Assembly (NCBI GenBank): GCA_020631655.1 | Contig: JAHDGV010000008.1 | Location: 1 to 32,842, forward strand | DNA from: Chloroflexota bacterium | GTDB lineage: Bacteria > Chloroflexota > Anaerolineae > Promineifilales > Promineifilaceae | DNA length: 32,842 bases | Direction: 5' to 3' | Part shown: positions 1 through 32,842 of the stretch, piece by piece | How positions within the stretch are numbered: position 1 is the first letter of the stretch | Layout of the letters: each line of letters opens with the position of its first letter | Notes under the pieces: generated by a model | Databases searched by the model: none | The model's input: only the letters and a program-made list of their open reading frames with translations | What the model was told of the DNA's origin: nothing | Translations under genes and position numbers: made by a program

Positions 1-2039
1 GTCACCAGTGGGTAGCCATCAAAGTTACGCGGCCGTACAACACCGTTGCTCACCGTCATCTCTTCGATGAGTGTCGAGCTGATTCCCCAGACAATGTTTC
101 CTTCTGCCTGCGCACGCGCACCGTCGGGGTTGATTACGATGCCCGGGTCAATCGCCTGCACGCATTTGTGGATCGTAATTACTCCGTCATCGGCCACCGA
201 TACAGCAACAACCATCGCTACCATCGTGTCAACGTCAGGAGAACAAGCAACGCCCCATCCCTGACCTTCTGGCAGGTCTGAGCCATAACCGGCTTTGTCG
301 GCCGCTTCGATCAGCACCGCTTTCATTCGCGTACCAAAATCGTCATCGGCCAAATGATCGAGCCTAAACTGGAGCGGGTCAGCCCCTGCTTCGTGAGCCA
401 GCTCATCCATGAAGCTTTCGTTGGCAAACACGTTGGCTAATAATCCCAACGAACGCCACCAGCCGGTCCGCAGGGGGAACGGGGCGAGATGAGTATTTAA
501 CTGCCGGTTCGGAATGTTGTCGTAGATGTTGAACGCACCACGCCAAGAGCCAAAGTCGGTCCCAAACACAAATTTCAGTGGAGCTGGGAAGAATGGAAAG
601 GCGACTTCACCACTCGAGTGATTATGGTTCAGGGCCACGATTTTGCCGTTTTCAACCCGGCCGCTCATCTTGCTCTTCGTGGCAGGGCGGAAATACCCAT
701 CCCGCATATCCTGCGGCCGGGTCCAACCGACGTGTACCGGCTTGCCCACCGCCTGCGACAAAAACGCTGCTTCAGTTGCCGCCTCGGTTGCCAATTTACG
801 GCCGAAGCCGCCGCCAAGATAAGTTGGAATAACCGTGATCCCATCTTCTTCAAGGCCGGTCACCTCGGCCACATCACCCCGAACTGAGTTGGGGAATTGG
901 GTAGATGCATACACTTCGGCTGTCCCATCGTCTTTGATGTTGACCAACGCAGCTTGTGGCTCTAAGTGAGCGTGAACGGCGAACGGAGTTGCGTATTCAG
1001 CCGTGACACTTGGTGTCCCAATCGCATCAAAACCGTCCCCATCTTTTTGGATGACGGTCCCAGCCCCGTCGCTGGTATCCATGAGCGCTTCAAGTTCTTC
1101 TTGGCTCCATAACTTGCCCTGATCCCATTCGATATTGATTGAGCCTATAGCGGCTTCCGCCTGCTGGCGGGTTTTTGCAACAACCCCGACCAACCCTTTT
1201 TCAATATCGATGGCTACCTTTTCGACGCCCGGTTTGTTGGGCGCGTCACCGGGATCGGCCGAAATCAACTTGCCTTCAATCGTGGGGGGATGCGCGACGA
1301 TACCGTACAACGTCCCTTCAACCCGTGCGTCGTAGCCGTATACGGCGTTGCCTCGGATTTTGTCTTCAAGATCAACCCGCGGCATCGATTTCCCGATAAA
1401 TTTAAATTCTGAGTTTGGTTTAAGGGTGATTTCTTCTTCCGGCTCGGTCCATTCAGATACGTTTGAAACAATCTCGCCGTAGCTGATGGCTTGGTCTGGA
1501 TTGGCGCTAACGCGGACAAATCCATCGGCCGTTTCAACGTCACTGGCCGCCACACTCAGCAAGCTGGCACCTTCTGCCACAAGCATCGTGCGCATGGTAG
1601 CGGCGGCCATCCGGCCCGGTTCCCACGATGTCGAAACAGAGTTCGATGCACCAGTTCCGAAACTGTCGGCCGGTCCCAGACCCGTATGTCCTTGCACAAC
1701 TTTGACTTGCTCCCAAGCCACGTCCAGCTCTTCGGCCGCAATTTGCCCAATGGCCGTGTGGATTCCTTGCCCCATTTCAACTTTGGGAACATAAATTGTA
1801 ATTTGGTTGTCTGGTGCAATCTCAAACCATGAGAGCGGCGTATCTTCAATCCCGCCGGGGGCACCCGCACCGCTGGAAAGTGTTCCGGCCATAAACCGGT
1901 AAAAGCGATTGCGCCCAAGGGCCACACCAACGGCTAAACTTCCGGCCGTGGCCCCTAGTCCAATTAAAAAGCCGCGCCGAGTGACGCGAAAACGACGTTT
2001 TTTGCCAGAGGAATCTGGAGCGGTAACTTGATCGCTCAT
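1..2039 (-). CDS. Molybdopterin-binding aldehyde oxidase/xanthine dehydrogenase-family large subunit (isoquinoline 1-oxidoreductase beta-subunit type), C-terminus runs off the left edge
   Basis: Minus-strand reading frame open from ATG at 2039 to the window edge (absent from ORF track because it is truncated). N-terminus MSDQVTAPDSSGKKRRFRVTRRGFLIGLGATAGS has a Tat-like RR motif; internal VIPTYLGGGFGRKLATEAATEAAFLSQAVGKPVHVGWTRPQDMRDGYFRPA is typical of the Mo-hydroxylase large subunit. Confidence 0.9.
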   Translation of the reverse strand, partial: MSDQVTAPDSSGKKRRFRVTRRGFLIGLGATAGSLAVGVALGRNRFYRFMAGTLSSGAGAPGGIEDTPLSWFEIAPDNQITIYVPKVEMGQGIHTAIGQIAAEELDVAWEQVKVVQGHTGLGPADSFGTGASNSVSTSWEPGRMAAATMRTMLVAEGASLLSVAASDVETADGFVRVSANPDQAISYGEIVSNVSEWTEPEEEITLKPNSEFKFIGKSMPRVDLEDKIRGNAVYGYDARVEGTLYGIVAHPPTIEGKLISADPGDAPNKPGVEKVAIDIEKGLVGVVAKTRQQAEAAIGSINIEWDQGKLWSQEELEALMDTSDGAGTVIQKDGDGFDAIGTPSVTAEYATPFAVHAHLEPQAALVNIKDDGTAEVYASTQFPNSVRGDVAEVTGLEEDGITVIPTYLGGGFGRKLATEAATEAAFLSQAVGKPVHVGWTRPQDMRDGYFRPATKSKMSGRVENGKIVALNHNHSSGEVAFPFFPAPLKFVFGTDFGSWRGAFNIYDNIPNRQLNTHLAPFPLRTGWWRSLGLLANVFANESFMDELAHEAGADPLQFRLDHLADDDFGTRMKAVLIEAADKAGYGSDLPEGQGWGVACSPDVDTMVAMVVAVSVADDGVITIHKCVQAIDPGIVINPDGARAQAEGNIVWGISSTLIEEMTVSNGVVRPRNFDGYPLV

Positions 2040-2512
2040 TAGGCTGTCCCTCCTTGGATCGTTTCGGCCGCTACAGCAACCGCACTTTTAATTCGATGAT
2101 AACAACCGCAACGGCAGTAATTATTTTTCATCGCGTCAACAATTTCTTCCTTAGTAGGATTGTTGTTTTGTTCCAAGAAGGCGGCCGCCTGCATCATTTG
2201 GCCGCTCATGCACCAGGCACATTGGGGAACTTGCCCGTCTAAAAATGCCTGTTGCACCGGATGCAAGGTCCCATCTTCGGCCGCCAATCCTTCTAGCGTT
2301 GTAATTTCAGCATCGGCAACGGCCGCGACCGGTGTCACACATGACCGGGTAGCAACCCCATCTACGTGAACCGTACACGATCCGCAAATGCCTGCGCCAC
2401 AGCCGAATCGGGTGCCGGTCATTCCCAATCCATCACGGATGGCCCATACCAATAAACCATCCGCATACGCATCATCGAGCTCCATCTCCGCACCATTAAT
2501 CGTTAATTTCAT
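2039..2512 (-). CDS. [2Fe-2S] small subunit of molybdenum hydroxylase (IorA/CoxS-like)
   Basis: CGAGICGSCTVHVDG and CAWCMSGQMMQAAAFL...NNYCRCGCYHRI cysteine motifs of two [2Fe-2S] clusters; stop/start overlap (TAATG) with the large subunit; purine-rich SD (AGGAAGG) upstream. Confidence 0.93.
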   Translation of the reverse strand: MKLTINGAEMELDDAYADGLLVWAIRDGLGMTGTRFGCGAGICGSCTVHVDGVATRSCVTPVAAVADAEITTLEGLAAEDGTLHPVQQAFLDGQVPQCAWCMSGQMMQAAAFLEQNNNPTKEEIVDAMKNNYCRCGCYHRIKSAVAVAAETIQGGTA

Positions 2513-2633
2513 CTTTACCTTCCTATCAGTTAGGCCGTCGTTTATTTCCGCAAGACTGGTGTTTTCAATTGGTACAGATCTAGGTTGTGAAGATCGAATT
2601 GAAACACTTGGAACGATTTAAAGTATAAAAACG

Positions 2634-2830: not shown

Positions 2831-5755
2831 ATGCGTAGACCCGATTACTCAGATATTCCAGATGCATTTAGGCGCGCTTTCGAGGGGGATGACGGTGGCG
2901 GTGGTCCCCGAAATCCAAACGACGGCGGCAGTGGGGGAAATGGTGGCGAAGAAGGCGGTGGAAATTACCAGCCAGAAAATGCCCCTCCACCTCTTTGGCG
3001 TTCACGACGCTTCTGGGTCATTCTAATTCTTCTATCCCTATTTATAGGGCTTAATCAAATCACCTCGTATTACACAGACTTTTTGTGGTTTAGCGAACGG
3101 GGGTATCGTAGCGTTTGGACGACCCAAATTGTTGCGACTTTAGGGACCTTTTTCAGCTTCTTTGCCATTGCGGCCGTCTTCCTGCTCGTCTCGTGGCGGT
3201 TAGCACGTCGTAATTCTTTGAACATTGCGGTTCCGTATTTTGGGGGTGCGCTATCTAGCGCATCCGGCAATTACTTGATCAACGGCGTTGCCCTGGTTCT
3301 GGCGTTTATGATGGCTTCGGCCGCCGCCACCATGTGGGAAGAGTTTTTGCTCTTCTTCAACCAAGCGCCGTTTGGCAAAGTTGATCCAATATTTGGGAAT
3401 GACATCAGTTTCTATGTCTTTTCTTTGCCCATTTACACTTTTATTCAGGGATGGCTGATGCCACTGGTGATCTTTTCATTGATCGGCACAGTGGTTATTT
3501 ACGTGACACGTTTGTTGCCCAGCCTTCCTCGGCAGGGGCAAACGATCCAGTTTTCGGTAGCGGATATTCCGGTATCGATGCGGCGTCAGCTGGCAATTCT
3601 CGGCTCACTCTTCTTTATCTTATTGGCAATCGGGAACAACTTAGCCCGTTTTGAATTGCTGTTTTCTGATAGAGGAGTTGTGTTTGGGGCCGGGTACACC
3701 GATGTCAACGCATCGCTCTATGCACTGTATATTCAGGCAGCCGCGGCCGCAGTTGTAGCTGTTTCATTGCTATATAACTTCTTCCGTCTTGAATTTAGGC
3801 CGGTTATTTTTGCGGGCGTTTTGTGGCTTATCGCCATCATCGGGGTGGGGGGGATTTATCCCAACATTTTGCAACGCTTTGTGGTGGTCCCAAACGAGTT
3901 AGCTCGCGAAATGCCCTTTATCGAGAACAACATCGAGTTTACTCGCGAGGCGTTTGGGCTAGATAAAGTAGTTGCCAAACCGTTTGGTCAGGTTGATGAT
4001 CTGACGGAACAAGACTTGGCGGAAAACGATGCGGCCCTTCAAAACGTTCGTTTGTGGGATTATCGGCCGCTTGAAGACACCTATAAAGAGCTTCAAGAGC
4101 TACGGCCTTATTATCAGATCGAAGAAGTTGATATCGACCGATATGAGATTGACGGGCAGACCCGCCAAGTGATGTTGGCCGCTCGTGAGTTAGATAAAGA
4201 CGGTTTGGACACCGATGCTTGGGTAAACCAAAAACTGGAATTTACACACGGGTATGGACTTGTCATGAACCCGGTTGATCGCTTTACCAGACAGGGTCGG
4301 CCGGAATTCTTTGTGAGTGACCTCCCGCCATCCAGCACGGTTAACATCGAAGTGACTCAACCAGAGATTTACTTTGGTGAGTTCACCAATGACGTTGTCT
4401 TTGTTGGATCAGGCTTGCCCGAGTTTAACTATCCCGGTGAAGTTGAAAATGTGTACACAACGTACTCAGGAACAGGCGGTGTACCGCTAAGCAACAATCT
4501 GCGTAAATTTGCGTTTGCCTTCCAGTTTGGCGAATCTAATCTGTTTTTCAGCCAGTATATCAATCCGCAAACCCGCATTCTTTACAACCGGCAAATTCAA
4601 GAGCGGGTGAAAGAGATCACTCCATTTTTGACTTTGGACCGCGATCCTTACTTAGTTGTGGCCGATGGCAGACTTTATTGGATTCAAGATACCTACACCA
4701 CCAGCAATCGCTATCCATATTCAGCCCCAATTCGATATGATGGTGATGGGGCATTGATCAACTACATCCGTAACAGCGTTAAGGTTGTGATCGATGCATA
4801 CAACGGAGAGGTAAGTTACTACTTGGTCCTCGGAAACGAAGATCCAATTATCGATGCGTATCAGCGAATTTTCCCCGGTTTGTTCCAACCGGCATCTGCG
4901 ATGCCAGCCAGCCTCCAGAATCACCTGCGTGTTCCCGAGAGCATGTTCAAGATTCAAACGCGCCAATACCAAACCTATCACGTGACCGATCCTCAGGTGT
5001 TCTTCAACAAAGAAGACTTATGGGATATTCCACAAGAGTTGTTTAACGAAACTTCTCAAGAAATGGAACCGTACTATGTTCTCTTTACCCTTCCGGGAGA
5101 GGAAAACCCAGAATATCTGCTAATCCAGCCGTATACCCCAGCAACCAAGAAAAACATGATTGCTTGGATTGCGGCCCGCAATGATCCAGAATTTTACGGC
5201 CAGATGGTCGCCTATGAATTCCCGAAACAGTCACTTGTGCTTGGACCCATTCAGGTTGAAAGTGCGATTGACCAAGAGCCAGATATTTCTCAGCAACTCT
5301 CGCTGTGGGACCAGCGTGGCTCTAGTGTAATCCGAGGGAATTTGATCGTGATTCCGCTGAATGACAGCTTCTTGTATGTTGAGCCGATCTACCTAGAGTC
5401 GGATAACAACCAGCTCCCAGAGCTCAAGCGAGTGATTGTGGCCAGCGGTGAACGAGTTGTGATGCGTGAAACGCTGAATGAAGCGTTGGTTGCTCTGCTT
5501 GAAGGGGATGGTGGAAACATTGTCCTTGAAGAGGTAGATTTTGGTGCAAGCGACGATGTTGACTCGAGTGCTGACCCGGTTGTTCCTGTTCCTGCGATTG
5601 TTGACGGCACAACGGCCGAATTAATCGATCAGGCGAATAGCCAGTTCGAAGCGGCACAAGAGGCACAGCAGGTCGGTGACTGGGCCGAATACGGCCGGCA
5701 AATTGAGGCTTTAGAACAGACGCTTCAACAGCTATCAGCCCAAAACGCTGAATAG
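2831..5755 (+). CDS. UPF0182 family large membrane protein
   Basis: Multi-pass N-terminal half followed by a large soluble region (LRPYYQIEEVDIDRYEIDGQTRQVMLAARELD..., DRDPYLVVADGRLYWIQDTYTTSNRYPYS) characteristic of UPF0182. ORF opens at 2708, but MRRPDYSDIPDAFRRAFEG at 2831 looks like the real start. Confidence 0.9.
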   Translation: MRRPDYSDIPDAFRRAFEGDDGGGGPRNPNDGGSGGNGGEEGGGNYQPENAPPPLWRSRRFWVILILLSLFIGLNQITSYYTDFLWFSERGYRSVWTTQIVATLGTFFSFFAIAAVFLLVSWRLARRNSLNIAVPYFGGALSSASGNYLINGVALVLAFMMASAAATMWEEFLLFFNQAPFGKVDPIFGNDISFYVFSLPIYTFIQGWLMPLVIFSLIGTVVIYVTRLLPSLPRQGQTIQFSVADIPVSMRRQLAILGSLFFILLAIGNNLARFELLFSDRGVVFGAGYTDVNASLYALYIQAAAAAVVAVSLLYNFFRLEFRPVIFAGVLWLIAIIGVGGIYPNILQRFVVVPNELAREMPFIENNIEFTREAFGLDKVVAKPFGQVDDLTEQDLAENDAALQNVRLWDYRPLEDTYKELQELRPYYQIEEVDIDRYEIDGQTRQVMLAARELDKDGLDTDAWVNQKLEFTHGYGLVMNPVDRFTRQGRPEFFVSDLPPSSTVNIEVTQPEIYFGEFTNDVVFVGSGLPEFNYPGEVENVYTTYSGTGGVPLSNNLRKFAFAFQFGESNLFFSQYINPQTRILYNRQIQERVKEITPFLTLDRDPYLVVADGRLYWIQDTYTTSNRYPYSAPIRYDGDGALINYIRNSVKVVIDAYNGEVSYYLVLGNEDPIIDAYQRIFPGLFQPASAMPASLQNHLRVPESMFKIQTRQYQTYHVTDPQVFFNKEDLWDIPQELFNETSQEMEPYYVLFTLPGEENPEYLLIQPYTPATKKNMIAWIAARNDPEFYGQMVAYEFPKQSLVLGPIQVESAIDQEPDISQQLSLWDQRGSSVIRGNLIVIPLNDSFLYVEPIYLESDNNQLPELKRVIVASGERVVMRETLNEALVALLEGDGGNIVLEEVDFGASDDVDSSADPVVPVPAIVDGTTAELIDQANSQFEAAQEAQQVGDWAEYGRQIEALEQTLQQLSAQNAE

Positions 5756-6104: not shown

Positions 6105-7586
6105 TTAGACCTGTGGCTGGCTAGAAGCTTGCTGTGCGATTGGGATCAACAAATGAGCCTCAAGCCCTGTAGATCCATCCACTCTGTTATCAATCGTAAA
6201 TTGGCCGCCAACGCTCCACAAAACCGAAGCAACGGTGGCCAAGCCCAGCCCAATCCCTTCAACTTCGCCGGTAAAGTTACTTTCAGATTGGTAATACGGT
6301 TGGCAGATAAACTTCAACTCTTCGGGTGCTAGATTGGCTCCATTGTCTGTGACCGTTAATTTGACCTGTCTACCTTGGTCCGCAATCGATGCATTGATAT
6401 CGATTGTCGGTTTGTGCATCGGATGGAACTTGCGAGAGTTATCAATTAACTCGCCCAAGATTACCTCGAGGGACTTTTTAGAGAGAGAGAGTTGGGTGGG
6501 GCCCGCGCCGTTGATCCGGCCGACGTTGATGTCTTCAACTTCTAGAGATGAGCCAACTGATGCTGCTAAATCAGGTAGAGCATCTAGTGAGAATGTTTCC
6601 CCTTGCTCTGACAAATTAGGCGAATCAACATATTGCAAAACGTCTTCAATCGCTTCTTTTAGACGATCTGCGTGGCGCATGGCCGTATCAAGCAGATCTT
6701 TGACTTCATCTGGTGGCAAATCATTGTAGCTGGCTAAAAATTGGATGCCGCTGTACATCCCGATAAGTGGGGTGCGCATTTTATGATGGACGGCCCGTTG
6801 GAACTTCCACATATCTTGGCGAGCAACAATTTGGCTGGTGACATCTTTGATGCTGATCATCCAAACCATTTCCTCATTGGAAACCAAACGGTCTAATGAT
6901 TCGATTTGTAGCCACAGGGGTGGCATTTTCGGCGTTTCCGGCCGTAGAAGATAGCGTGGTTCACCATCAGGTGCCCAGTCTGGCCAATTGCCCCAAGCTG
7001 TTTCTGGTTCTAATCGATATCTTTTTTGGACCACATCTAAGAACGGATCTTTGATATCTTCGTCCATGTCAACAGGAAGCCCCATATACAAACGGGCCTG
7101 ATGATTGGCAAAGGTGCATTTGCCTTTGTCATTAATCAGCAAATATCCATTTTCAGATAGATCTGCTACCAGTTGGAATTTCGCTTTTTCTTCTAAAAGT
7201 CGACGATATCGATTAAGGCGGGTGATGGTGCGGACTCGCGCTTGTAGCTCCAGAGTGTCGTATGGCTTGGGGATAAAGTCGTCGGCCCCAGCTTCGATCC
7301 CGCGCAGTCTGGCTGAGCGGTCATCAAATGCGGTAACCATAATGATGGGAATATCGGCCGTTGATGGGTTGGCTCTTACTTTTCGACAGACGTCAAAGCC
7401 ATTTAGGCCGGGCATACGCACGTCTAAAAGCACAAGGTCAGGTTTTAGTTTAAAAATTTTATCGAGGGCTTCAACACCGTTTTCAGCAAAATGCAGATCA
7501 TAACCCTCCTCTTTTAAGAGGCGGTTCATGTGATTGCGCATTAACGCTTGGTCATCAACGATGAGAACCTGACTTGTATAGTCCAT
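6105..7586 (-). CDS. Response-regulator receiver / sensor histidine kinase (REC-PAS-like-HisKA-HATPase)
   Basis: N-term QVLIVDDQALMRNHMNRLL...DLVLLDVRMPGLNGFDVC...PKPYD receiver; H-box region AVHHKMRTPLIGMYSG; HATPase motifs ELIDNSRKF and GIGLGLATVASVL. Confidence 0.87.
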   Translation of the reverse strand: MDYTSQVLIVDDQALMRNHMNRLLKEEGYDLHFAENGVEALDKIFKLKPDLVLLDVRMPGLNGFDVCRKVRANPSTADIPIIMVTAFDDRSARLRGIEAGADDFIPKPYDTLELQARVRTITRLNRYRRLLEEKAKFQLVADLSENGYLLINDKGKCTFANHQARLYMGLPVDMDEDIKDPFLDVVQKRYRLEPETAWGNWPDWAPDGEPRYLLRPETPKMPPLWLQIESLDRLVSNEEMVWMISIKDVTSQIVARQDMWKFQRAVHHKMRTPLIGMYSGIQFLASYNDLPPDEVKDLLDTAMRHADRLKEAIEDVLQYVDSPNLSEQGETFSLDALPDLAASVGSSLEVEDINVGRINGAGPTQLSLSKKSLEVILGELIDNSRKFHPMHKPTIDINASIADQGRQVKLTVTDNGANLAPEELKFICQPYYQSESNFTGEVEGIGLGLATVASVLWSVGGQFTIDNRVDGSTGLEAHLLIPIAQQASSQPQV

Positions 7587-7755: not shown

Positions 7756-8661
7756 TTAATGTTGTCCTTGCTTCATTTTCGCAATTTTCACGGTCTGATA
7801 ATAAATCTTTACCGTGTCATTTATGTCACGGCCGTACCCACCGGCTAGCGTAACAACCGTGGGCCAATTGTTTCGCCTGCATAAGTCCAGCACATATTCA
7901 TCCCGTGCCTTTAAGCCTGCGTAAGATAAATTTAGCCTGCCCAGTCTGTCACCTGAGAAAGGATCGGCCCCGGCCAAATAAAAGACCATTTCCGGTTTAA
8001 AACGATCCAAAGCTTCGTTTAAACCGGTTTTTAGCGCCAGTAAATAATCAGCATCGCCAGTTTCGATGGGGAGGCCGATGTCTAAATCGCTTTGGGCTTT
8101 GCGGGCAGGGAAATTCTTTTGACAATGGATCGAGAAAGTAAAAATTGATGGATCGTTTTGAGCGATCAATGCGGTGCCATTCCCTTGATGAACGTCACAA
8201 TCGATCACAAGAACGTCAGAAATCAATCTTTCTTGTTGTAGCACCCGGCTGGCAATAATGATGTCGTTAAATAGGCAATAGCCCTGCGGCCGATCCCATT
8301 GCGCATGATGTGTGCCTCCGCCACCGGTGCAGGCGATGCCGTCGTCTAAAGCGGATCTGGCGGCCATAATCGTGGCTCCAACCGTGTGACGCACCCGTTT
8401 GGCTAGCTCTGGTGACCAAGGCAATCCCATTTCCCGCTCTAGTTTTGGTGGAAGAGTTCCATCCCGAATTTGCTGAATATAATCGGCCGAATGGGCCAAT
8501 CTGAGCTGTTCGTCTGTTGCTTCTGGGGCTGGGATAAGGTCTTCTTTAGGAAAATCCGGGGAAGCGGTAATTCGCTTTTGGAGCAGGGTATACTTTTCCT
8601 GTGGAAAGCGATGCGTCTCCGGCAAAGGGAAAGAATGATGCGCATAGTAAAAAAACTTCAC
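7756..8661 (-). CDS. Histone deacetylase-family hydrolase (AcuC/HDAC-like)
   Basis: AGADPFSGDRLGRLNLS, VIDCDVHQGNGTA, ACTGGGGTHHAQWDRPQGYCLFND catalytic/metal-binding motifs. Likely start GTG at 8661 (VKFFYYAHHSFPLPETHRFP) rather than the upstream GTG at 8679. Confidence 0.87.
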   Translation of the reverse strand: MKFFYYAHHSFPLPETHRFPQEKYTLLQKRITASPDFPKEDLIPAPEATDEQLRLAHSADYIQQIRDGTLPPKLEREMGLPWSPELAKRVRHTVGATIMAARSALDDGIACTGGGGTHHAQWDRPQGYCLFNDIIIASRVLQQERLISDVLVIDCDVHQGNGTALIAQNDPSIFTFSIHCQKNFPARKAQSDLDIGLPIETGDADYLLALKTGLNEALDRFKPEMVFYLAGADPFSGDRLGRLNLSYAGLKARDEYVLDLCRRNNWPTVVTLAGGYGRDINDTVKIYYQTVKIAKMKQGQH

Positions 8662-23804: not shown

Positions 23805-24713
23805 ATGAATACAACAGGTTTAATTTTTATCGGTCTAGTTCTTGTTTTACTCGTTATTGTCTACATCGCCGTGGTCTTTTTAAGATCAGGCGGCGAAGAT
23901 GCGTTGACGAACCGTATCAATGAATATGCGGCACGCGAAGAAGTGGCGACAATCGAAGATATTGAGCTTTCGATGGGGCTTGGGGAACGGGTAGTTGTTC
24001 CCTTTCTGAGACGGATTGGATCAACAATTTCTCGGTTTGCACCACAAGAAATGCTGGACCGGACAACCCGTCAGCTGGAGCAAGCCGCATGGACAATTGG
24101 ACCGGCCGAGTTTATGGGGATAACCATTTTTTCTATGGCCGCTTTGGGCGGGCTTTCCTTTTGGATTGCTCAGGATGGACGTGAACTTTTGTTTGCCTTA
24201 GGTGGTTTAGCTGTTGGACTGGTTTTGCCGAGAATGATGTTAGGCTCGGCCGTGGCTCGTCGTAAAGAGTCGATCATTAAAAAATTGCCTGACGCACTGG
24301 ACTTGATGACGATCTGTGTTGAAGCTGGGCTGACTTTTGACGGTGCAATGACCAAAGTAGACGAAAAGTGGGAAGATCCGCTATCAAACGAATTTGGCCG
24401 CGTAGTAAATGAGTTGCAGTTGGGTAAAACCCGTCGTCAAGCGTTAAAAGACATGACGGATAGATTGGAAGTTCCTGACGTTCAAACGTTTGTCGCTTCG
24501 ATTCTTCAAGCCGATCAGCTAGGTGTTAGCGTGGGTAAAGTTCTACGCATCCAATCTGACCAAATGCGCGTGCGTCGCCGTCAGCGTGCGGAAGAGAAAG
24601 CGCAACAGGCACCGGTTAAAATGCTGTTCCCGATGGTATTTTTGATTTTCCCGGCGCTGTTTGTGGTGCTTTTAGGCCCGGCCATTGTGCGGGTATGGCG
24701 CATCATGCTATAA
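23805..24713 (+). CDS. tadC: TadC inner-membrane platform protein
   Basis: LPDALDLMTICVEAGLTFDGAMTKVDEKWEDPLSNEFGRVVNELQLGKTRRQALKDMTDRLEVPDVQTFVASILQADQLGVSVGKVLR; follows tadB by 4 bp. Confidence 0.92.
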   Translation: MNTTGLIFIGLVLVLLVIVYIAVVFLRSGGEDALTNRINEYAAREEVATIEDIELSMGLGERVVVPFLRRIGSTISRFAPQEMLDRTTRQLEQAAWTIGPAEFMGITIFSMAALGGLSFWIAQDGRELLFALGGLAVGLVLPRMMLGSAVARRKESIIKKLPDALDLMTICVEAGLTFDGAMTKVDEKWEDPLSNEFGRVVNELQLGKTRRQALKDMTDRLEVPDVQTFVASILQADQLGVSVGKVLRIQSDQMRVRRRQRAEEKAQQAPVKMLFPMVFLIFPALFVVLLGPAIVRVWRIML

Positions 24714-24715: not shown

Positions 24716-25429
24716 TTAATTTGTTAGATCACGGCTCCTAAGGTGCACCATGATGTTTTCTTGTTGTGGTGCCCAACGGGCCGTGGGTATGCCTGCATCT
24801 TTTAAGAGCCTGTTTGTCCACATATTACACGTTTCAAAAATATGATAATACCGAGGCGACTCGTAGAACTGATCGTTTAAGTGTGGGTAAAAGCAACAGT
24901 TAAGCGATTGGGGTTGTCCGTCTGAATCGAGCAAAAAGGAATCTTTAAAGCCATCAATTAAAATTTGATATTGCTTGGCCGAAATTTCGATTGGAATGCT
25001 GTTGTCGGTCTCTTTCAGCTGATTTTCAAAATATGAGACGTGAACGGCCGAATCTGTGGGGATCAGCATCGAGCGAAAAGCGATAGAGGCGGTTAAATCA
25101 CTCCACTGTGGTACATCTTCATATAAACCACGATCACCCCAGCCAAACGCGATATATGGGGGGCTTTCGGTCTGGGGAGTAGGCTGGAAGGTTGCGGGAT
25201 CTAAAAACTCGGTCCAATCAATTTGATCTGTTACGGTAGGGACAACGATGTCTGTGTGAACCCCGTTGGAGATGACAAAAATCTTGATCCCATTGGGAGT
25301 CGGTTCAAAATCAGAATTAACCGTCTGATTTCCTAACCATTCACCGATGATCAAATATGCTGAGACAAACGCGCAGAGTGCTCCGAGCAAGCGTAGGCTG
25401 TATTTCCAAGTAAATTTAAGGCCTTTCAT
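24716..25429 (-). CDS. DUF2459 (TIGR02117-like) membrane-anchored protein
   Basis: FVISNGVHTDIVVPTVTDQIDWTEFLDP...YIAFGWGDRGLYEDVPQWSDLT...CNMWTNRLLKDAGI. Confidence 0.82.
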   Translation of the reverse strand: MKGLKFTWKYSLRLLGALCAFVSAYLIIGEWLGNQTVNSDFEPTPNGIKIFVISNGVHTDIVVPTVTDQIDWTEFLDPATFQPTPQTESPPYIAFGWGDRGLYEDVPQWSDLTASIAFRSMLIPTDSAVHVSYFENQLKETDNSIPIEISAKQYQILIDGFKDSFLLDSDGQPQSLNCCFYPHLNDQFYESPRYYHIFETCNMWTNRLLKDAGIPTARWAPQQENIMVHLRSRDLTN

Positions 25430-26430
25430 TATTCTGTAACGAGATGCATGACCGTTAGGTTCCGTTTTAGGCTAAATCCAGCCTCACGTAGTAGTCCCTC
25501 TATCGAACTCTGATTGACATCTTGTTGGATAACAATTGTTTTTGAGCGCATGTAGCGCAGGCGGCGGCTTAACTTGGCAACCATAGGGCGTTCAACGAGG
25601 TGGGCCCAATCTGGGTGCATACGGAACTTTAAAGCATAGGGGCGACCAAAATCATTTTCGATGATGCCGAGACCAACAACTTGCTTAGATTGGTTTTCGG
25701 CTACCCAAATTTCATGGTTTGACCCAGAAAAGAACCACTGAATCGACCTTTTAAGCCCCCGCTTGTAGTAGTTGGGCTGAGGCGGATCGGGCCAGTTTAA
25801 GGCTTTGGGGAAAATCGATTTATCAAGTAGGAAAGCCTGTTTTGCATCTTCGGGGCGGAGCGGCCGTAGTTGAAACTCGCCGTAATCATCCGGCCGCGAA
25901 CGGCTGATCGGCGGCCGAGAAGCCACTGTTTTTAGAGCGTACCAGTTCATGCGCCAATCACGTACCTCACCAACCTTTTCGAAGCCAAGTTCTTGGTAAA
26001 GTTTGTAGGCGCTTTCGTTTTCAGTCTCGACTTGCAGTGCAATTTGATGCCCACCCCGATTTTTGATGTAGCGAACTACCTCAACCATCATTTTGCGCGC
26101 GATGCCCCGCCTGCGGAAATCTGGATGAACGGCCACGTTGGCCACCAAATACCTGCCGGGCACACGCGATTCGAGCAAAGAGACATTGCCAACAATTCGT
26201 TTATCAATGCTGTAGACAAAGCCGGGAACAATTTGCTCGCGGCCGTTAATAAAATCTTTTAGTGAAAATCCGGGCGAAATCGTATGGTGACCGGCACCAC
26301 GAAGATGCTGGTTAAATACCAGTTCTAGTAGGGCAATAACTTGTCGCGCATCTTGTCTTACGTGCATAGGGCGAACGTGTGATTGTTCGCGGACAGATGC
26401 TTGTTCTGATGGGAGATTCAGTGTGGCCAT
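25429..26430 (-). CDS. Tandem GNAT N-acetyltransferase
   Basis: LVANVAVHPDFRRRGIARKMMVEVVRYIKNRGGHQIALQVETENESAYKLYQELGFEKVGEVRDW; second GNAT-like half downstream; TAATG overlap with DUF2459 gene. Confidence 0.87.
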   Translation of the reverse strand: MATLNLPSEQASVREQSHVRPMHVRQDARQVIALLELVFNQHLRGAGHHTISPGFSLKDFINGREQIVPGFVYSIDKRIVGNVSLLESRVPGRYLVANVAVHPDFRRRGIARKMMVEVVRYIKNRGGHQIALQVETENESAYKLYQELGFEKVGEVRDWRMNWYALKTVASRPPISRSRPDDYGEFQLRPLRPEDAKQAFLLDKSIFPKALNWPDPPQPNYYKRGLKRSIQWFFSGSNHEIWVAENQSKQVVGLGIIENDFGRPYALKFRMHPDWAHLVERPMVAKLSRRLRYMRSKTIVIQQDVNQSSIEGLLREAGFSLKRNLTVMHLVTE

Positions 26431-26631: not shown

Positions 26632-27282
26632 ATGCAATCAAGTTTATTTGATGACGATACCAACCAGCCGCGCTTCTCGAGCCTAGATGAGATTAAAGCA
26701 CATATGATGGCCATGACAGATGATCCGCTGTATCCGGCCGGAACCAACATGGTTATTTGCCGCGGTAATCCAGATGCTAAACTGATGATTGTGGGGGAGG
26801 CTCCGGGAACCAATGAAAATATACAGGGGAAACCGTTTGTTGGTAAATCTGGTCAGCTGTTGGATCAGATCATCAAGGCGGTTAATTTAGACCCTGAGCA
26901 GGATGTGTTTGTAACAAACGCGGTATTCAGACTGCCGCCGGGTGAAAATGGGAAGCCACTGCGTAAACCCACACCGGCCGAAATTGACTGGTACAAACCA
27001 TATTTGCAAGAAATTATTCGGGTGATTGATCCGAAGATTATGCTGTTAACGGGCGGGGTTTCGATGCGGTCGGTTTTGAATGAAACTAAGCTGGGCATCA
27101 CTAAAATGCGTGGAAATTGGCAACAGATTGACGGCCGTTGGATCATGCCGATCTTTCACCCCGCATATTTGTTGCGCAACCCATCTCGCCAAGCGGGACA
27201 GCCAAAATCACTTACTTGGCAAGACATTCAAGAAGTACGCAAAAAATACGACGAACTTGGTTTAGGGGGATCGGCCGGATAG
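26632..27282 (+). CDS. Uracil-DNA glycosylase, family 4-like
   Basis: LMIVGEAPGTNENIQGKPFVGKSGQLLDQII, VFVTNAVFRLPPGENGKPLRKPTPAEI, PIFHPAYLLRNPS. SD-like AGAGGA before ATG 26632; ORF-track start 26596 likely too early. Confidence 0.9.
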   Translation: MQSSLFDDDTNQPRFSSLDEIKAHMMAMTDDPLYPAGTNMVICRGNPDAKLMIVGEAPGTNENIQGKPFVGKSGQLLDQIIKAVNLDPEQDVFVTNAVFRLPPGENGKPLRKPTPAEIDWYKPYLQEIIRVIDPKIMLLTGGVSMRSVLNETKLGITKMRGNWQQIDGRWIMPIFHPAYLLRNPSRQAGQPKSLTWQDIQEVRKKYDELGLGGSAG

Positions 27283-27312
27283 CTTGGTAGATCAAGCGGC
27301 CGAAATTAATCT

Positions 27313-28041
27313 TTGACTCAAACACACTCATCAAAAGCGGCGGAGCGGGGCGAACCCGGCTATGTTTGGCGGTCTGGACAAGATCGCCGTTTACAAATGG
27401 TTTTAGAATGGAGCGACTTGCAGGGACGCGTACTCGATAACGGGTGCGGACTTGGCACATGGATTCGCGCATTTGAAGAATTTAATGGGGATGTGTTTGG
27501 GCTAGAAGTGGAGTTTGAACGGCTCACCGAATCTGTTACCCAAGGCAAAGGAGTGTTGCAGGGAGTGGGTGAAACATTGCCGTATGCGACCAACAGTTTT
27601 GACACGATCTTTAGCAACGAGGTGATTGAGCACGTTGCAGATGATGCTGTTTGCATGGCTGAAATGGTTCGAGTTCTTAAACCGGGCGGCCGAATCATTA
27701 TCTTTTGCCCCAATCGCTGGTATCCCGTTGAGCAACACGGCATTTATTGGCGAGGAGAATACAAGTTTGGCAACATCCCGCTCGTTAATTATTTGCCCGA
27801 TGTGTGGCGGGATAAGTTGGCTCCACACGTGCGGACCTACTCCAAACGAAAACTTCGCAAGTTGTACCGCGACCTGCCGGTCACGGAGATTCATCACAGC
27901 CGGATTTATGGGGGGTACGACAATATCGTTAATCGTCGGCCGCAATTGGGGAAACTGATCAGGCGCGTGCTGTACGGGGCAGAGAAAGGGCCATTGGCCG
28001 TGTTAGGCATCTCTCATTTTTTGGTTTTAGAAAAAAATTAA
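27313..28041 (+). CDS. SAM-dependent methyltransferase (class I, Methyltransf_11-like)
   Basis: RVLDNGCGLGTWIRAFEEFNGDVFGLEVE motif I; FDTIFSNEVIEHVADDAVCMAEMVRVLKPGGRIIIFCPNRW. TTG start. Confidence 0.9.
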   Translation: MTQTHSSKAAERGEPGYVWRSGQDRRLQMVLEWSDLQGRVLDNGCGLGTWIRAFEEFNGDVFGLEVEFERLTESVTQGKGVLQGVGETLPYATNSFDTIFSNEVIEHVADDAVCMAEMVRVLKPGGRIIIFCPNRWYPVEQHGIYWRGEYKFGNIPLVNYLPDVWRDKLAPHVRTYSKRKLRKLYRDLPVTEIHHSRIYGGYDNIVNRRPQLGKLIRRVLYGAEKGPLAVLGISHFLVLEKN

Positions 28042-28883
28042 GCGGTGTATTCAACCTGCTCGAAGCTGGTGGTGTCAAATTCGCTGATCTTGTCGCGCCC
28101 TAATGCCCGTACTCGGTCATGGACCTGTTCAGCATCATTGCGCAATTTAGCCACATTAATGCCCCGACACACGCCTGGCAGGGGATCGAGCCATTGTTTA
28201 ACCCGCATCAGCATTTTGATCGCCCCGTTGTAATTCCCTCTTTCGATTTGGAGATAAGCAACTCCCACCTGTAAAACCCCACGATACAAATCACGGCCGG
28301 GGCCGGTGTCTTCATTCCAAGCGTGCTCTAGCTCTTCATGGGCATCGAAATAGCTACCTGCATTAAACAGCTCCAATCCTTTAATGGCCAACGGAGAGAG
28401 TGGCTCAGCGCAAGCAGATGCGATCCCATCCACGTCAGTTTTGCGAGCCTTTTTGGCAATGATTTTTGAGACGTCTCTCAAGAAGATTTCTTGCGAGATC
28501 GCAATCTCGGCCCCACGCGCTTTGGCGACAGCTTTTGTTTCAGGGGCCAGCTCGGCCGACCATGCCACAATGGGGGAACGTCGTGTGGCGGGGGATGATT
28601 TGAGGATCGGCATCCACTTTTTCCAGTTAATGGCCAAATTATCCATGTCGACCATGATCAATTTAGGGACAAGATCAACTATTGCGGCAAATGCACTCGC
28701 ATCTTCACCCTTGGTAGGTTCCCCCGGCCGGTTTTTTTGCACCGGATCACCACTGGCCGAAGCAAGCAGGTCGGCCGGACTTTGGAACGCTTTTAGCTCG
28801 TAGCCGAGCGGTTCAGCCGCTTGGCGTACCGCATCAACTAAATCAGGCTGGTGTGTAAATAAAACGAGGTTAGAGGGTGTCAT
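28038..28883 (-). CDS. Receiver-like N-terminal domain fused to DUF309 domain
   Basis: C-term GLELFNAGSYFDAHEELEHAWNEDTGPGRDLYRGVLQVGVAYLQIERGNYNGAIKMLMRVKQWLDPLP is DUF309; N-term NLVLFTHQPDLVDAVRQAAEPLGYEL...PKLIMVDMDNLAINWKKWMPIL...IVAWSAE receiver-like fold. Confidence 0.8.
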   Translation of the reverse strand: MTPSNLVLFTHQPDLVDAVRQAAEPLGYELKAFQSPADLLASASGDPVQKNRPGEPTKGEDASAFAAIVDLVPKLIMVDMDNLAINWKKWMPILKSSPATRRSPIVAWSAELAPETKAVAKARGAEIAISQEIFLRDVSKIIAKKARKTDVDGIASACAEPLSPLAIKGLELFNAGSYFDAHEELEHAWNEDTGPGRDLYRGVLQVGVAYLQIERGNYNGAIKMLMRVKQWLDPLPGVCRGINVAKLRNDAEQVHDRVRALGRDKISEFDTTSFEQVEYTA

Positions 28884-31066
28884 TCTGCAAAATAAACGTC
28901 TGTGGCCGTGATAATGATAAATCTGGTTGGATTTTGGGTCACCACAAAATCAACCGCTTGCGGGATGAGTTCACGCCCATCAGCGCCTGTGGCGCGATAT
29001 TGATTTAGCAACACACCTGAGCGGCTGAGTTGCAAAATCCGATTGCTTCCGGGGTCCAGAATAAAGATCGATGCGGTATTACCGTCGCCGGTGTATTTGA
29101 TCGCTTGTGGCGCCAAAATCGGACTTTGTAATCCGTTACGAGCCAGCGTGTCATCTGTCCATGTTGTCCGGCCGTTGTAATATTTCAGCAGTGTCCCATC
29201 TTCGTACAAAAACAGCACCGAGCCGTCAGATTCATCAATCACAAAATCGACAGATTCTTCTAGATTTGGGGAGTCATAAAACGTGATCGCTTGCCGTTCT
29301 TCCTGAATCACGTAGTTACCGTTAGATGGGTAATAGCGCCACACATATCCTGCATCGTCATCGAGGACGTACAAATTGCCGCCGTATTCGTTCATTTGCA
29401 ACGGATGGCGCCACGCGCTCGACATGCCCAGCTGGATGACTCGGAGTTCAGATGCCTCTGGGAAGTAGCTGACGATCGCTCCTCGGTTGTCCAAAATGGC
29501 CAAGGCCTCACGTGGGTTCTGGGAATCAAGCGGCCGCCACATCATGTCAACAAACTGGCCGATTGCGTACGCACCAATCGCACGATCGGCCGTGGCAATG
29601 GTTGTTGGTTCACCCGTTTCGATAGCAGGGAGCAAATCTGGTCCTGTTTGGTGGAAATAGACCGCCTGAGCCCCTTCATCTAACACATAAAAACCATCCC
29701 CAACGGTGGATGATTGAGCTACAACAGATTTTAATGCGGTTGTTTCACCCTCATAGCTGTGAAGTCGTTGCGCGTTTAATCTGAAAATGCCGTCCATTTC
29801 ATCTAGCTTGCGTCTGGCTGATTCTTGGATGCTGAGCACCTCTGGCTCTGTCACACCGCTGGCTAAGGCGCGCTCGCCCAGTTCTAGCACTTGTAAGAAG
29901 CGTGCTCTTTGCAATGCGGGATCAGTTTCTTGCTCAGCCAAAATTTGGGTCGCCGCCATTTGCTCTAGCAAATAGCTTCGTTGTTCGTTGGCTTCGTTGC
30001 GCAAGTAAATGCCGAAAAACAGCAGGGCCATCAGGATGGGAATCAATGTTGAAATGGCCGCTAGTCTCGGCCATTCAGCCCGCTGTTTGGGCATTTCAGG
30101 TGTGTTTTGATCGATAGCTTCTGTGATAGGGGCATCAAACTGCTCTAGAACTTCGGCCGCTTTCCCGGCCGCGCGTGACACACCAGACGCCGCGCCTGCC
30201 ACAGCCCGTTTGGGCATCCCCATACCGCTAACCAACGTTTCGTCGGGATCAACAGTTTCATCGTCGTTGCCTCGTCCTCGGCCGGATAAGCCACCCACGT
30301 TGAACCGTGGAATTCCCATCCCCATAGTTGGGCGAGCCGATTGTTTGCTCAGTAATTCGATATGGAATTTGCTATCTTTGTACAGCTGGGGCGGATCGCT
30401 TGTGAAGCGAATCATGATCACTTTTAGAGGCTGATCGGCCGCAATATCAGCCAAGTCGGCCAGTGAACTTTCAACATCGTTGTAGGCCAGTGCGCTTTCA
30501 AGCGTCGTGCCCGGAATCACCGCTAGCCAAGGGTCTACCAACAAAAACTGCACCCCTTCTTGGATGCGGTAATGCTCGAAGCGAAAATCTAAGTTGACCC
30601 CTTGACCTAATGGAGTGATGCGATCTGGCTCGTTAGACGGAATTTTTTCGACGCCAAAGTTGTGCCCCATCATGGCTAAAGATGGGCCGGTCTGAACGAT
30701 GTAGACTTCATCATTTTTGTAGACCACACTGGTCAAAGCCGCTTCACGATTCACCGAATCATTCGACATGTTCCACTTGAGCAGGAGCCCGTTGATGTGG
30801 CGTGATGCTTGGCGGAGTGCAGAGTTCACCGTCCCACTTGTGCGAAAGTAGAAAGTAGAAAAAGCTTCGGCCAGATCTTCGGCCAAAATATCATACTGGT
30901 CTGCTACTGCTGGGAATAGGGTGATGTGTATAAATAGGATGTCACCTTGGCGGGTACGGTCGGCCGAACGCGGGGCGCGTTGCCCGATGAGGCCGGAGAT
31001 TTTTGCACCCTCTTGTACCTCTCCATTTTTTTTGTCTAGGAAGCCTGTGACCGCCAAAAGTTCCAT
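28880..31066 (-). CDS. PP2C-like (apparently degenerate) domain - transmembrane helix - beta-propeller-like sensor protein
   Basis: N-term ALTSVVYKNDEVYIVQTGPSLAMM...VQFLLVDPWLAVIP resembles PP2C strands; single TM LAAISTLIPILMALLFFGIYL; C-term repeats such as GGNLYVLDDDAGYVWRYYPSNGNYV, SVLFLYEDGTLLKYYNGR, ASIFILDPGSNRILQLSRSG. Confidence 0.68.
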   Translation of the reverse strand: MELLAVTGFLDKKNGEVQEGAKISGLIGQRAPRSADRTRQGDILFIHITLFPAVADQYDILAEDLAEAFSTFYFRTSGTVNSALRQASRHINGLLLKWNMSNDSVNREAALTSVVYKNDEVYIVQTGPSLAMMGHNFGVEKIPSNEPDRITPLGQGVNLDFRFEHYRIQEGVQFLLVDPWLAVIPGTTLESALAYNDVESSLADLADIAADQPLKVIMIRFTSDPPQLYKDSKFHIELLSKQSARPTMGMGIPRFNVGGLSGRGRGNDDETVDPDETLVSGMGMPKRAVAGAASGVSRAAGKAAEVLEQFDAPITEAIDQNTPEMPKQRAEWPRLAAISTLIPILMALLFFGIYLRNEANEQRSYLLEQMAATQILAEQETDPALQRARFLQVLELGERALASGVTEPEVLSIQESARRKLDEMDGIFRLNAQRLHSYEGETTALKSVVAQSSTVGDGFYVLDEGAQAVYFHQTGPDLLPAIETGEPTTIATADRAIGAYAIGQFVDMMWRPLDSQNPREALAILDNRGAIVSYFPEASELRVIQLGMSSAWRHPLQMNEYGGNLYVLDDDAGYVWRYYPSNGNYVIQEERQAITFYDSPNLEESVDFVIDESDGSVLFLYEDGTLLKYYNGRTTWTDDTLARNGLQSPILAPQAIKYTGDGNTASIFILDPGSNRILQLSRSGVLLNQYRATGADGRELIPQAVDFVVTQNPTRFIIITATDVYFAE

Positions 31067-31255: not shown

Positions 31256-32449
31256 ATGACCGTACAGCCAGATATTTATTCTGAACTCTCGAACCACATT
31301 AAACCTTCACCCATTCGCGCACTTATCCCATTTATTCGCCAGCCGGGGGTGATTAGTTTTGCCGGTGGGTTACCCGCCCCAGAAACATTTCCTGTGGAAC
31401 AGATCCAAGAAATAACCCAAAATATTTTGGAAGAGGAGCCTGGCTCCGCTTTGCAGTATGGACCAACAACGGGAGACCCACGTTTGCGCCAAGCTGTGGC
31501 TGATCGCTTAACCAAAAAGATGGGTGTTGACGTTGAAGCGGATCAGGTGATTATCACAACTGGTTCTCAGCAGGCCCTATTTTTGGCCGCTATGATCCAT
31601 GTTGATCGTGGTGATGCTGTTGGGGTTGAATCACCTACGTTTACAGGCGGCATTTCTGCGTTTGATCCGTTCCATGCAAAGTTTATTCCGTTTGAGATGG
31701 ATGAGGATGGGATAAAAACAGATCAGTTGGAAGCATGGTTGGCGGCCGGAAACCGGCTGAAAATGCTGTACACAATTCCCGATTTCCAAAACCCTACCGG
31801 GGTTACTCTGTCGCTTGAGCGGCGCAAACACATGGTTGAGCTGGCAAAAACCTACAACTTCATCATTATGGAAGATGCGCCGTACACCGATTTGCGCTAC
31901 TCGGGCGAACCTGTGCAATCTGTCTATTCGCTCGATGATTCTGGTCACACATACTACTGTGGTTCATTTTCAAAGATTTTTTCACCCATTCGGCTGGGAT
32001 GGCTGGTTGCGCCCAAAGAGGTCATAGACCGGCTCAACGTTGCTAAGCAACCGGTTGATACTTGTTCACCGATGCTAACCCAAGCAATTGCTTATTATTT
32101 CTTGTCTCAAAATTATTTGGGACCTCAAATCGAAAAAATCACCGCGTTTTATAAAGCTCGGCGGGATGTGATGTTGAGTGCGTTAGATGAACTGATGCCA
32201 GAAGGGGTGACGTGGACTCGGCCGGAAGGGGGGATGTTTGTTTGGATCACGGTGCCGGAACATGTTGATGTCCAGCAACTGTTCCACAAAGCCATCGACA
32301 ACAAGGTAGCTTTCGTAACAGGAAGCGCCTTCTTTATTGATGAGGCGGTGCAACCCAACACCTTGCGGGTAAATTTTGTTAGCGAGAATGGGGAACAGAT
32401 CACAGAAGGGATCAAGCGTTTGGCTGAATCCCTGAAGGATATGCTTTAA
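31256..32449 (+). CDS. PLP-dependent class I/II aminotransferase (2-aminoadipate aminotransferase/MocR-C-terminal-like)
   Basis: VISFAGGLPAPETFPVEQ, LQYGPTTGDPRLRQAVADRL, TIPDFQNPTGVTLSLERR, YCGSFSKIFSPIRLGWLVAP. SD GGAGA before ATG 31256. Confidence 0.94.
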   Translation: MTVQPDIYSELSNHIKPSPIRALIPFIRQPGVISFAGGLPAPETFPVEQIQEITQNILEEEPGSALQYGPTTGDPRLRQAVADRLTKKMGVDVEADQVIITTGSQQALFLAAMIHVDRGDAVGVESPTFTGGISAFDPFHAKFIPFEMDEDGIKTDQLEAWLAAGNRLKMLYTIPDFQNPTGVTLSLERRKHMVELAKTYNFIIMEDAPYTDLRYSGEPVQSVYSLDDSGHTYYCGSFSKIFSPIRLGWLVAPKEVIDRLNVAKQPVDTCSPMLTQAIAYYFLSQNYLGPQIEKITAFYKARRDVMLSALDELMPEGVTWTRPEGGMFVWITVPEHVDVQQLFHKAIDNKVAFVTGSAFFIDEAVQPNTLRVNFVSENGEQITEGIKRLAESLKDML

Positions 32450-32461
32450 ACCGGCTGTGCT

Positions 32462-32842
32462 TTAGGCAAAATTGTTTAGTGAAATGTCTGGGAGTTCTGA
32501 TAAGTTCGATTCGGCCGATCCGATGGCGGTAAACAGCCAGGGTAGTAGATAAGAAAACGTAATGGCGATGAAGGCGCACTGAACCGCCATGATCAAATAA
32601 TCTAACAGCCGGCCGGTTTCGTACACGTTGCTCACAGGTGCCCAAGTTGCCATGCCGTACACAATGCCACTCATGATCGCCACACCAATGATGGTGTTTA
32701 GGGCACCACCGGCCCAAGTGCCTGCGGGGCGGAATCCTATCCGGCCGGTTTCAAGCGCAATACCCATTCCGATGCCTGTTAGCAAAGCCAACGCACTAAT
32801 TGAATTGATAAAGCCCAATTGCCATGCCCGCCAATACAGGGC
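32462..32842 (-). CDS. Hypothetical membrane protein, 5' end truncated by right window edge
   Basis: Frame open to the window edge (ALYWRAWQLGFINSISALALLTGIGMGIALETGR...); the ORF-track TTG start at 32818 is probably not the true start; several hydrophobic segments. Confidence 0.6.
   Translation of the reverse strand, partial: ALYWRAWQLGFINSISALALLTGIGMGIALETGRIGFRPAGTWAGGALNTIIGVAIMSGIVYGMATWAPVSNVYETGRLLDYLIMAVQCAFIAITFSYLLPWLFTAIGSAESNLSELPDISLNNFA

Follow-up and report, generated by a model that had tools for sequence, protein, structure and literature searches.

The palindromic hexamer CGGCCG is strongly enriched throughout the genome of a Chloroflexota bacterium, and either this hexamer or an octamer version of the signal is enriched in most genera of the same family, in dialects that differ between genera and at positions that are conserved between species. 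We read this as a HIP1-like genomic signal that is selectively maintained and that has a putative reader. The stretch of DNA from which the signal was originally predicted, referred to here as the window, is 32,842 bp long and 47.2% GC. The original prediction claimed roughly 100 copies of CGGCCG in the window where base composition alone would give approximately 6, together with a scarcity of other GC-only palindromes. A hexamer count returns exactly 100 copies, making CGGCCG the top-ranking hexamer, and the composition-based expectation is likewise about 6. GGCGCC occurs 3 times, and GCCGGC, CCGCGG, and GCGCGC occur 4 times each. The coordinates quoted in the prediction lie within 0-2 bp of the sites listed below; eight are shifted (3743 to 3744, 5690 to 5692, 11980 to 11981, 25892 to 25891, 25911 to 25912, 28773 to 28772, and 30153/30168 to 30154/30166) and the rest are exact. 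The sites, as obtained from the hexamer count and with strand recorded as '.' throughout, are as follows.

30..35, 299..304, 658..663, 714..719, 799..804, 1256..1261, 1526..1531, 1667..1672, 1733..1738, 1943..1948: strand '.', CGGCCG sites
2065..2070, 2182..2187, 2278..2283, 2320..2325, 3171..3176, 3318..3323, 3744..3749, 4064..4069, 4298..4303, 5613..5618: strand '.', CGGCCG sites
5692..5697, 6517..6522, 6939..6944, 7355..7360, 7829..7834, 8287..8292, 8484..8489, 8908..8913, 9016..9021, 9439..9444: strand '.', CGGCCG sites
9728..9733, 9836..9841, 9949..9954, 10231..10236, 11284..11289, 11687..11692, 11981..11986, 12732..12737, 12885..12890, 13088..13093: strand '.', CGGCCG sites
13125..13130, 13372..13377, 13744..13749, 14469..14474, 14800..14805, 15000..15005, 15902..15907, 17142..17147, 17832..17837, 17970..17975: strand '.', CGGCCG sites
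18378..18383, 18562..18567, 18664..18669, 19254..19259, 19365..19370, 19630..19635, 20281..20286, 20501..20506, 20521..20526, 20638..20643: strand '.', CGGCCG sites
20996..21001, 21107..21112, 21588..21593, 21880..21885, 22059..22064, 22200..22205, 22657..22662, 23463..23468, 24103..24108: strand '.', CGGCCG sites
21189..21194: strand '.', CGGCCG site in an intergenic spacer
24247..24252, 25045..25050, 25861..25866, 25891..25896, 25912..25917, 26240..26245, 26735..26740, 26975..26980, 27132..27137, 27272..27277: strand '.', CGGCCG sites
27297..27302: strand '.', CGGCCG site in an intergenic spacer
27687..27692, 27937..27942, 28294..28299, 28553..28558, 28725..28730, 28772..28777, 29169..29174, 29531..29536, 29587..29592: strand '.', CGGCCG sites
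30154..30159, 30166..30171, 30279..30284, 30436..30441, 30961..30966, 31743..31748, 32219..32224, 32512..32517, 32610..32615, 32742..32747: strand '.', CGGCCG sites

The enrichment is not confined to the window. The whole genome contains 20,841 copies of CGGCCG, or one per 331 bp, compared to 1,202 copies of the reversed palindrome GCCGGC, which served as a control, and no other GC-only palindrome of equal length exceeds its expected count in this genome. A genome-wide count close to expectation would have spoken against the signal, as would a codon-preserving null model that reproduced the count. When synonymous codons were shuffled within the window's ORFs of at least 100 amino acids, 12.4 ± 3.0 copies were obtained (maximum of 22 in 200 shuffles), compared to 90 observed, such that codon-preserving nulls reach only about one-seventh of the observed count. 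A maximal-order Markov model does predict 82 copies in the window, but this expectation is misleading because it is conditioned on CGGCC and GGCCG, the two pentamers that make up the motif.

We also considered whether codon usage, a single protein motif, or a repeat family could produce the count. About half of the sites do lie in a single reading, xCG-GCC-Gxx, which is the most frequent frame. However, all three codon frames are represented in the window (18, 49, and 23 sites), many residue contexts contribute, no shared flanks were found around the sites, and spacer DNA is enriched as well. With the motif codons held fixed, approximately 23 copies of CGGCCG are expected by chance in the window's genus compared to 594 observed, and the octamer forms found elsewhere in the family behave in the same way: 8.6 versus 1,012 for ACGGCCGT, 1.3 versus 170 for TCGGCCGA, 0.1 versus 52 for GCGGCCGC, and 0.6 versus 61 for TGCCGGCA. 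Together, the two kinds of null rule out codon usage or composition as the cause, and an origin in codon usage, a protein motif, or a repeat family is so improbable that we give it almost no weight. Genus g4, which has a high GC content, exceeds the codon null by only about 1.6- to 2-fold. Sequences one base removed from the motif at first appeared to be depleted, but this was an artefact, since the shuffle had spread the motif codons; with those codons fixed, one-off sequences are near expectation (0.85-1.73 overall), and where they are in excess, the differing base is at a position that is synonymous in the main frame or is the octamer's outer base.

The original prediction placed the copies almost entirely inside coding sequences, on genes of both strands, and in more than one codon frame. 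Nearly every gene in the window, on either strand, does contain CGGCCG, and several sites before base 1530 that seem to lie outside any ORF probably belong to a gene that is truncated by the window's edge. The frames extend to all three, as described above. The concentration of sites in genes mostly reflects a genome that is largely coding: observed-to-expected ratios in spacers are about 16 in the window's genus and range from 6 to 83 across genomes. The motif is therefore found in coding and spacer DNA alike and in genes unrelated in function, as expected of a highly iterated palindrome (HIP) in the broad sense. Site spacing is near random, and we found no regular spacing, just fewer very short gaps (for ACGGCCGT gaps of less than 60 bp, 0.048 versus 0.094 ± 0.009).

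Enrichment of coding and spacer DNA alike, together with near-random spacing, is what would be expected of an unselected, context-dependent mutation bias, in which polymerase errors or repair favor CGGCCG-like contexts and no reader is involved. The specificity of the signal argues against this, as known context effects span a few bases, whereas the signal here can be 8 bp long and palindromic, its edge base differs by genus, and its excess reaches about 100-fold; equally long GC-only palindromes of other sequence do not share in it. We consider a mutation bias of this kind to be quite improbable.

The original prediction described the signal as CGGCCG and proposed a comparison with related genomes. 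That description is accurate for the window's genus, while most of the family uses an octameric unit, in general ACGGCCGT. The closest named relatives of the window's organism are Chloroflexi MAGs, with UPF0182 protein identities of 88% and 74%, and not cyanobacteria. Enrichment was observed in the window's congeners and in most genera of the family, the genomes of which are incomplete draft bins, at a density of about one motif per 200-600 bp in enriched genomes. In a sample of 221 genomes, no other Chloroflexota family had CGGCCG well above GCCGGC. Plain CGGCCG is the form in the window's genus, in G020, and in genus g4; genomes with this form include G002, G003, G004, G007, G020, G059, and G064. 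The congener G003, estimated to be 94% complete, carries 25,568 sites. G046 belongs to the genus of G020 but has another dialect, and G012 and G049 show no clear signal. The form in most genera is ACGGCCGT, with the highest count per genome in G043 (15,176 copies versus 183 of the reversed form). Two sampled genomes carry TCGGCCGA and one carries GCGGCCGC. In G014 the core itself is changed, with 3,665 copies of TGCCGGCA, which contains GCCGGC, compared to 14 of ACGGCCGT.

Individual sites are also retained at orthologous positions to a greater extent than other words, as judged from small samples from a few loci (between 47 and 220 comparisons of sites, some of them entered once in each direction). 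Of the CGGCCG sites in the window that could be compared to MAG-182, which shares 78% nucleotide identity, 35 of 47 are identical, while the figure for other GC-only hexamers is 57 of 228, or 25% (Fisher p ~3e-10). Between genera, ACGGCCGT is retained in 30 of 58 comparisons, compared to 7% for GC-matched octamers. Where the amino acids are conserved, xCG-GCC codons are retained in 54 of 83 cases when the next base is G and in 6 of 21 when it is not (p = 0.003, or 0.04 with the counts halved). Codon retention thus depends on whether the next base completes the palindrome. Selection, biased repair, and uptake drive all predict identical conservation of this type.

Uptake drive would apply if the motif served in DNA uptake and had dialects like those of the Neisseriaceae: a competence receptor would prefer DNA that carries the motif, and repeated transformation would spread it by molecular drive. 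Uptake sequences are usually non-palindromic and sparser than the motif described here, and a rough comparison showed motif density to be no higher in more widely conserved genes. The window does contain a T2SE/T2SF gene cluster, which is more Tad/Flp-like and is no proof of competence. The Chloroflexota dialects, which differ between genera at the edge bases, resemble those of the Neisseriaceae uptake sequences (PMC3630211). Uptake sequences too occur in thousands of copies. They have a direction and depend on the ComP receptor, while the Chloroflexota motif is a palindrome. We judge an uptake signal to be improbable.

A methylated site was one of three explanations offered in the original prediction, alongside an uptake/recombination signal and a repair/replication-linked motif, and the prediction suggested looking for a methyltransferase that recognizes CGGCCG. 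In the model that Elhai proposed for cyanobacterial HIPs, the palindrome is the target of a methyltransferase, and mismatch repair directed by methylation favors the creation of sites, which accumulate as a by-product with no function of their own. Of 51 genomes in the family, 50 encode MutS. In Elhai's survey, a predicted methyltransferase of matching specificity accompanies each alternate HIP, and these alternate HIPs are GC-rich palindromes such as GGCGCC, rCCGGy/GCCGGC, GCsGC, and GGGATCCC, among which GCCGGC is the core of the G014 dialect; CGGCCG is absent from the main text of that report (Elhai 2015, PMC4390886).

The genes found in the family do not support this idea. Among the C5, N4/N6, and D12 methyltransferase families that were searched, none is common to the enriched draft bins, and G003, despite its many sites, has no match to any of the three. 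G022, estimated to be 100% complete, has just a Dam-like enzyme and weak N4/N6 matches, the best of which is a ParB-like fusion. A C5 enzyme was an attractive candidate at first, as all four of its carriers (G002, G004, G020, and G059) have plain CGGCCG. This enzyme is Dcm-like and CCWGG is depleted in those carriers that lack Vsr, so it can be explained without reference to CGGCCG; moreover, it is absent from G003, G007, and G064, which have plain CGGCCG as well. The D12 enzymes contain a YNGLxR..FNVPFG region, which we take to be that of the GATC-specific Dam, and they occur across dialects and in genomes that lack the signal. Likewise, the signal does not appear to be a product of Vsr, which is found in 8 of 51 family genomes and in none of the 5 from the window's genus. 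The family thus has Dcm-like and Dam-like genes with inferred sites CCWGG and GATC, but carriage of these genes does not track the CGGCCG signal. The three metaepigenome papers that were searched contain no CGGCCG data for the window's family. An origin as a by-product of methylation appears unlikely, although it deserves more weight than the uptake and mutation-bias explanations.

The original prediction named cyanobacterial HIP1, GCGATCGC, as the closest analogue, and this reading is strengthened by a signal that extends over the whole genome, does not depend on codon usage, occurs in spacers as well, is kept at orthologous positions, and varies as octamers across a family. By these features the motif is a HIP in the broad sense. 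HIP1 is likewise a short palindrome with thousands of copies in genes and spacers, with an octamer unit in most of its clade, preferred edge bases, and alternative palindromes in some lineages. In the strict sense the motif is not HIP1, as the window contains no copies of GCGATCGC and its host is not a cyanobacterium. The cores differ as well (GATC in HIP1, GGCC here), the Chloroflexota motif is denser, its variants track the genera of one family, and a cognate methyltransferase was not found within the three enzyme families searched. The alternate HIPs described by Elhai are similar in that a GC-rich palindrome takes HIP1's place, but they are sporadic, while the Chloroflexota trait covers a whole family of more than 20 genera. 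Our literature search found nothing relevant on a CGGCCG motif or on HIPs in Chloroflexi.

The explanation that we favor, and to which we give about even chances, is a HIP system in one Chloroflexota family in which the sites are read by a protein, are either advantageous or driven by that reader, and have acquired dialects as the reader changed. A symmetric, probably homodimeric DNA-binding protein would read a GGCC-centred palindrome that recurs at intervals of about 200-600 bp along the entire chromosome. Either a large number of sites would be advantageous or the reader would drive their spread, such that mutations by which a site arises or is preserved would be fixed more often than others; sites would therefore accumulate by point substitution where protein coding permits and persist between species. 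Changes in how the reader contacts the outer base pair of the palindrome could then have given rise to plain CGGCCG, ACGGCCGT, TCGGCCGA, and GCGGCCGC, and to TGCCGGCA with its changed core. The benefit would presumably lie in upkeep of the whole chromosome, such as strand choice in mismatch repair, replication, or nucleoid organisation, rather than in gene regulation. We consider a more specific version possible but less likely than not: a methylation-independent HIP whose dedicated reader, not a methyltransferase, would recognize 5,000-20,000 palindromes of 6-8 bp on each chromosome, and whose specificity would have drifted by genus while the genomes were rewritten at thousands of positions to follow.

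Cyanobacterial HIP1 has puzzled researchers for decades, partly for want of a second, independent example. The Chloroflexota belong to another phylum and have a palindrome of their own with clear genus dialects, apparently without a methyltransferase to match, and so offer a comparative test for HIPs. If methylation proves to be uninvolved, then the methylation-based HIP model would not be general. Within this family, a gene that changes with the dialect (ACGGCCGT, TCGGCCGA, GCGGCCGC, TGCCGGCA, or plain CGGCCG) and is lost along with the signal should be the reader.

According to the original prediction, the window holds roughly 100 copies of CGGCCG where about 6 would be expected by chance. 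The exact count is 100, which makes CGGCCG the top-ranking hexamer there, and composition at 47.2% GC does lead to an expectation of about 6 copies. Other GC-only palindromes are as rare as was claimed, with GGCGCC, GCCGGC, CCGCGG, and GCGCGC present in only 3-4 copies each. Codon usage had been dismissed as an explanation unless a codon-preserving null reproduced the count, so we shuffled synonymous codons within genes, which alters neither the encoded proteins nor the codon usage of any gene. Mechanically called open reading frames of at least 100 amino acids contain 90 copies, compared with 12.4 ± 3.0 under shuffling (maximum of 22 in 200 runs), and all three codon frames are represented among the sites. 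A stricter null, in which the bases at codon junctions are also held fixed, leads to a similar result for this genome: 21.9 copies are expected in the window and one further contig, and 137 are found.

The excess extends genome-wide: the 6.9-Mb draft source genome contains 20,841 CGGCCG (1 per 331 bp) versus 1,202 copies of the reversed palindrome, GCCGGC. CGGCCG is enriched in 5 of 5 genomes of the window's genus and in most genera of the family. Among the 221 Chloroflexota genomes sampled, which are draft bins, some of them contaminated, no genome from another family shows CGGCCG in clear excess over GCCGGC. In three other families (f28, genus g76; f31, genus g88; f36, genus g87), GCCGGC outnumbers CGGCCG by far (for example, 8,052 versus 43, 12,516 versus 749, and 5,982 versus 47), which may point to another palindrome system or to CGGCCG being avoided.

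In a survey of about 45 genomes, with 7-330 kb sampled from each, we compared every palindrome of 6 or 8 bases with the codon null and found that the palindrome unit varies among lineages. The unit is ACGGCCGT in most genera of the family, TCGGCCGA in genomes G010 and G046, GCGGCCGC in G017, and plain CGGCCG in the window's genus, G020, and genus g4. G014 has lost CGGCCG (3 versus 53 expected) and uses TGCCGGCA instead (61 versus 5). These assignments match whole-genome counts, which are as high as 15,176 ACGGCCGT in G043, with 183 reversed copies, and 3,665 TGCCGGCA versus 14 ACGGCCGT in G014. Since G020 and G046 are placed in one genus and differ in dialect, the dialect can switch inside a genus. 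Relative to its congeners, G001 shows an in-between preference for ACGGCCGT (2,982 of 19,906 CGGCCG). The same survey of 6- and 8-mers gave no clear signal in G012 or G049. Two contigs of G055 (C1 and C2) lack the motif, yet that whole genome holds 11,907 ACGGCCGT; this suggests contaminant or recently acquired DNA, and presence of the family motif could be used to check binning.

In spacers, the observed-to-expected ratio for CGGCCG is 16 in the genus, 5.6 in the congener G003, and 30 in G020, and that for ACGGCCGT is 83. Other features of the window are as follows.
5912-5981: intergenic inverted-repeat element with a 31-nt stem, similar to common REP-like spacer repeats
12252-12399: intergenic inverted-repeat element
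16847-18412: large ORF of 521 aa, without any Pfam hit (E-value limit 0.01)
19909-24713: clustered genes for a response regulator/ParA-like ATPase, a T2SE ATPase, and a pair of T2SF proteins, together resembling a Tad/Flp pilus module
28883-31066: large ORF of 728 aa, likewise without a Pfam hit (E-value limit 0.01)
Both repeat elements have many copies in the genome and its congeners, mostly at 77-94% identity.

We found no dependence of motif density on breadth of gene conservation, and gaps between sites are near random, with short gaps under-represented. With motif codons held fixed, words one base away from the motif occur at 0.85-1.73 of expectation overall, indicating that decay products are few relative to intact sites; an apparent depletion of these words in a first shuffle was withdrawn on this basis. 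Pure mutation bias as the source of the motif ranks fourth among the explanations, and we regard it as improbable.

We aligned 15.7 kb of the window with a relative, MAG-182, at 78% identity. CGGCCG is identical in MAG-182 at 35 of 47 sites, compared with 57 of 228 for other GC-only hexamers (p about 3e-10). Likewise, ACGGCCGT is retained in 30 of 58 between-genus comparisons (approximately 65-73% identity) versus 7% for GC-matched octamers. To control for codon and amino-acid effects, we followed the codon pair xCG-GCC where the amino acids are conserved; it was kept in 54 of 83 cases when a G completes the palindrome and in 6 of 21 when another base follows (p = 0.003, or 0.04 after halving the counts because comparisons ran in both directions). 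These conservation data come from few loci. Taken as a mean across all sites that occur in at least one of the two genomes, motif identity approximates that of the flanks, so sites are either intact or diverged, as expected if gain and loss both occur. This conservation fits selection or drive and does not separate them; uptake drive, which we rank third, seems to us distinctly improbable.

The proposal of a methylated site with a matching enzyme fared poorly, since none of the C5 (PF00145), N4/N6 (PF01555), or D12 (PF02086) methyltransferase families is common to all enriched genomes among the 40 draft bins searched, and G003 (94% complete, 25,568 sites) has zero matches to any of them. One C5 protein is common to G002, G004, G020, and G059; its match to NCBI PRK10458 (E. 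coli-type DNA cytosine methylase) falls under the cut-off, that to the broader dcm superfamily falls over it, and its closest solved relatives are 3lx6 and 3me5. CCWGG occurs at 0.06-0.42 of codon expectation in G000, G001, G002, G004 (genus g1), G020, and G046, and at 1.09 in G003. In G059, a Vsr gene adjoins the Dcm-like C5 gene and CCWGG is hardly depleted (0.77). The pattern fits deamination of m5C at CCWGG, and the strong depletion in the first six genomes fits Dcm-like C5 methylation without Vsr. In G000, G001, and G046, no close orthologue was confirmed alongside the depletion, so for these three the link to this enzyme is inferred. Because the CCWGG pattern assigns the shared enzyme a different job, we rejected it as a CGGCCG methylase. 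The D12 enzymes contain a YNGLxR..FNVPFG region, which we take to be that of GATC-specific Dam proteins. Six C5 methyltransferase matches fall in a single genome, G001. Methylation-linked repair ranks second among the explanations, although we think it unlikely.

The proposed analogy with cyanobacterial HIP1 holds in that the CGGCCG signal appears to work like a highly iterated palindrome; it is not HIP1 itself, from which it differs in both sequence and host. The closest named genomes are Chloroflexi MAGs, so the host is not a cyanobacterium. Elhai-type alternate HIPs have a matching methyltransferase, whereas none was found here among the C5, N4/N6, and D12 families, and for this reason we do not yet assign the signal to that class. 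We found no earlier report of it in the open-access papers searched, which are only part of all literature. Relative to known HIPs, the phylum, the core, the family-wide dialects, and the apparent absence of a cognate methyltransferase are apparently new. The explanation that we favor, at about even odds, is that the palindrome is a maintained recognition signal, for which the candidate reader would be a symmetric protein.
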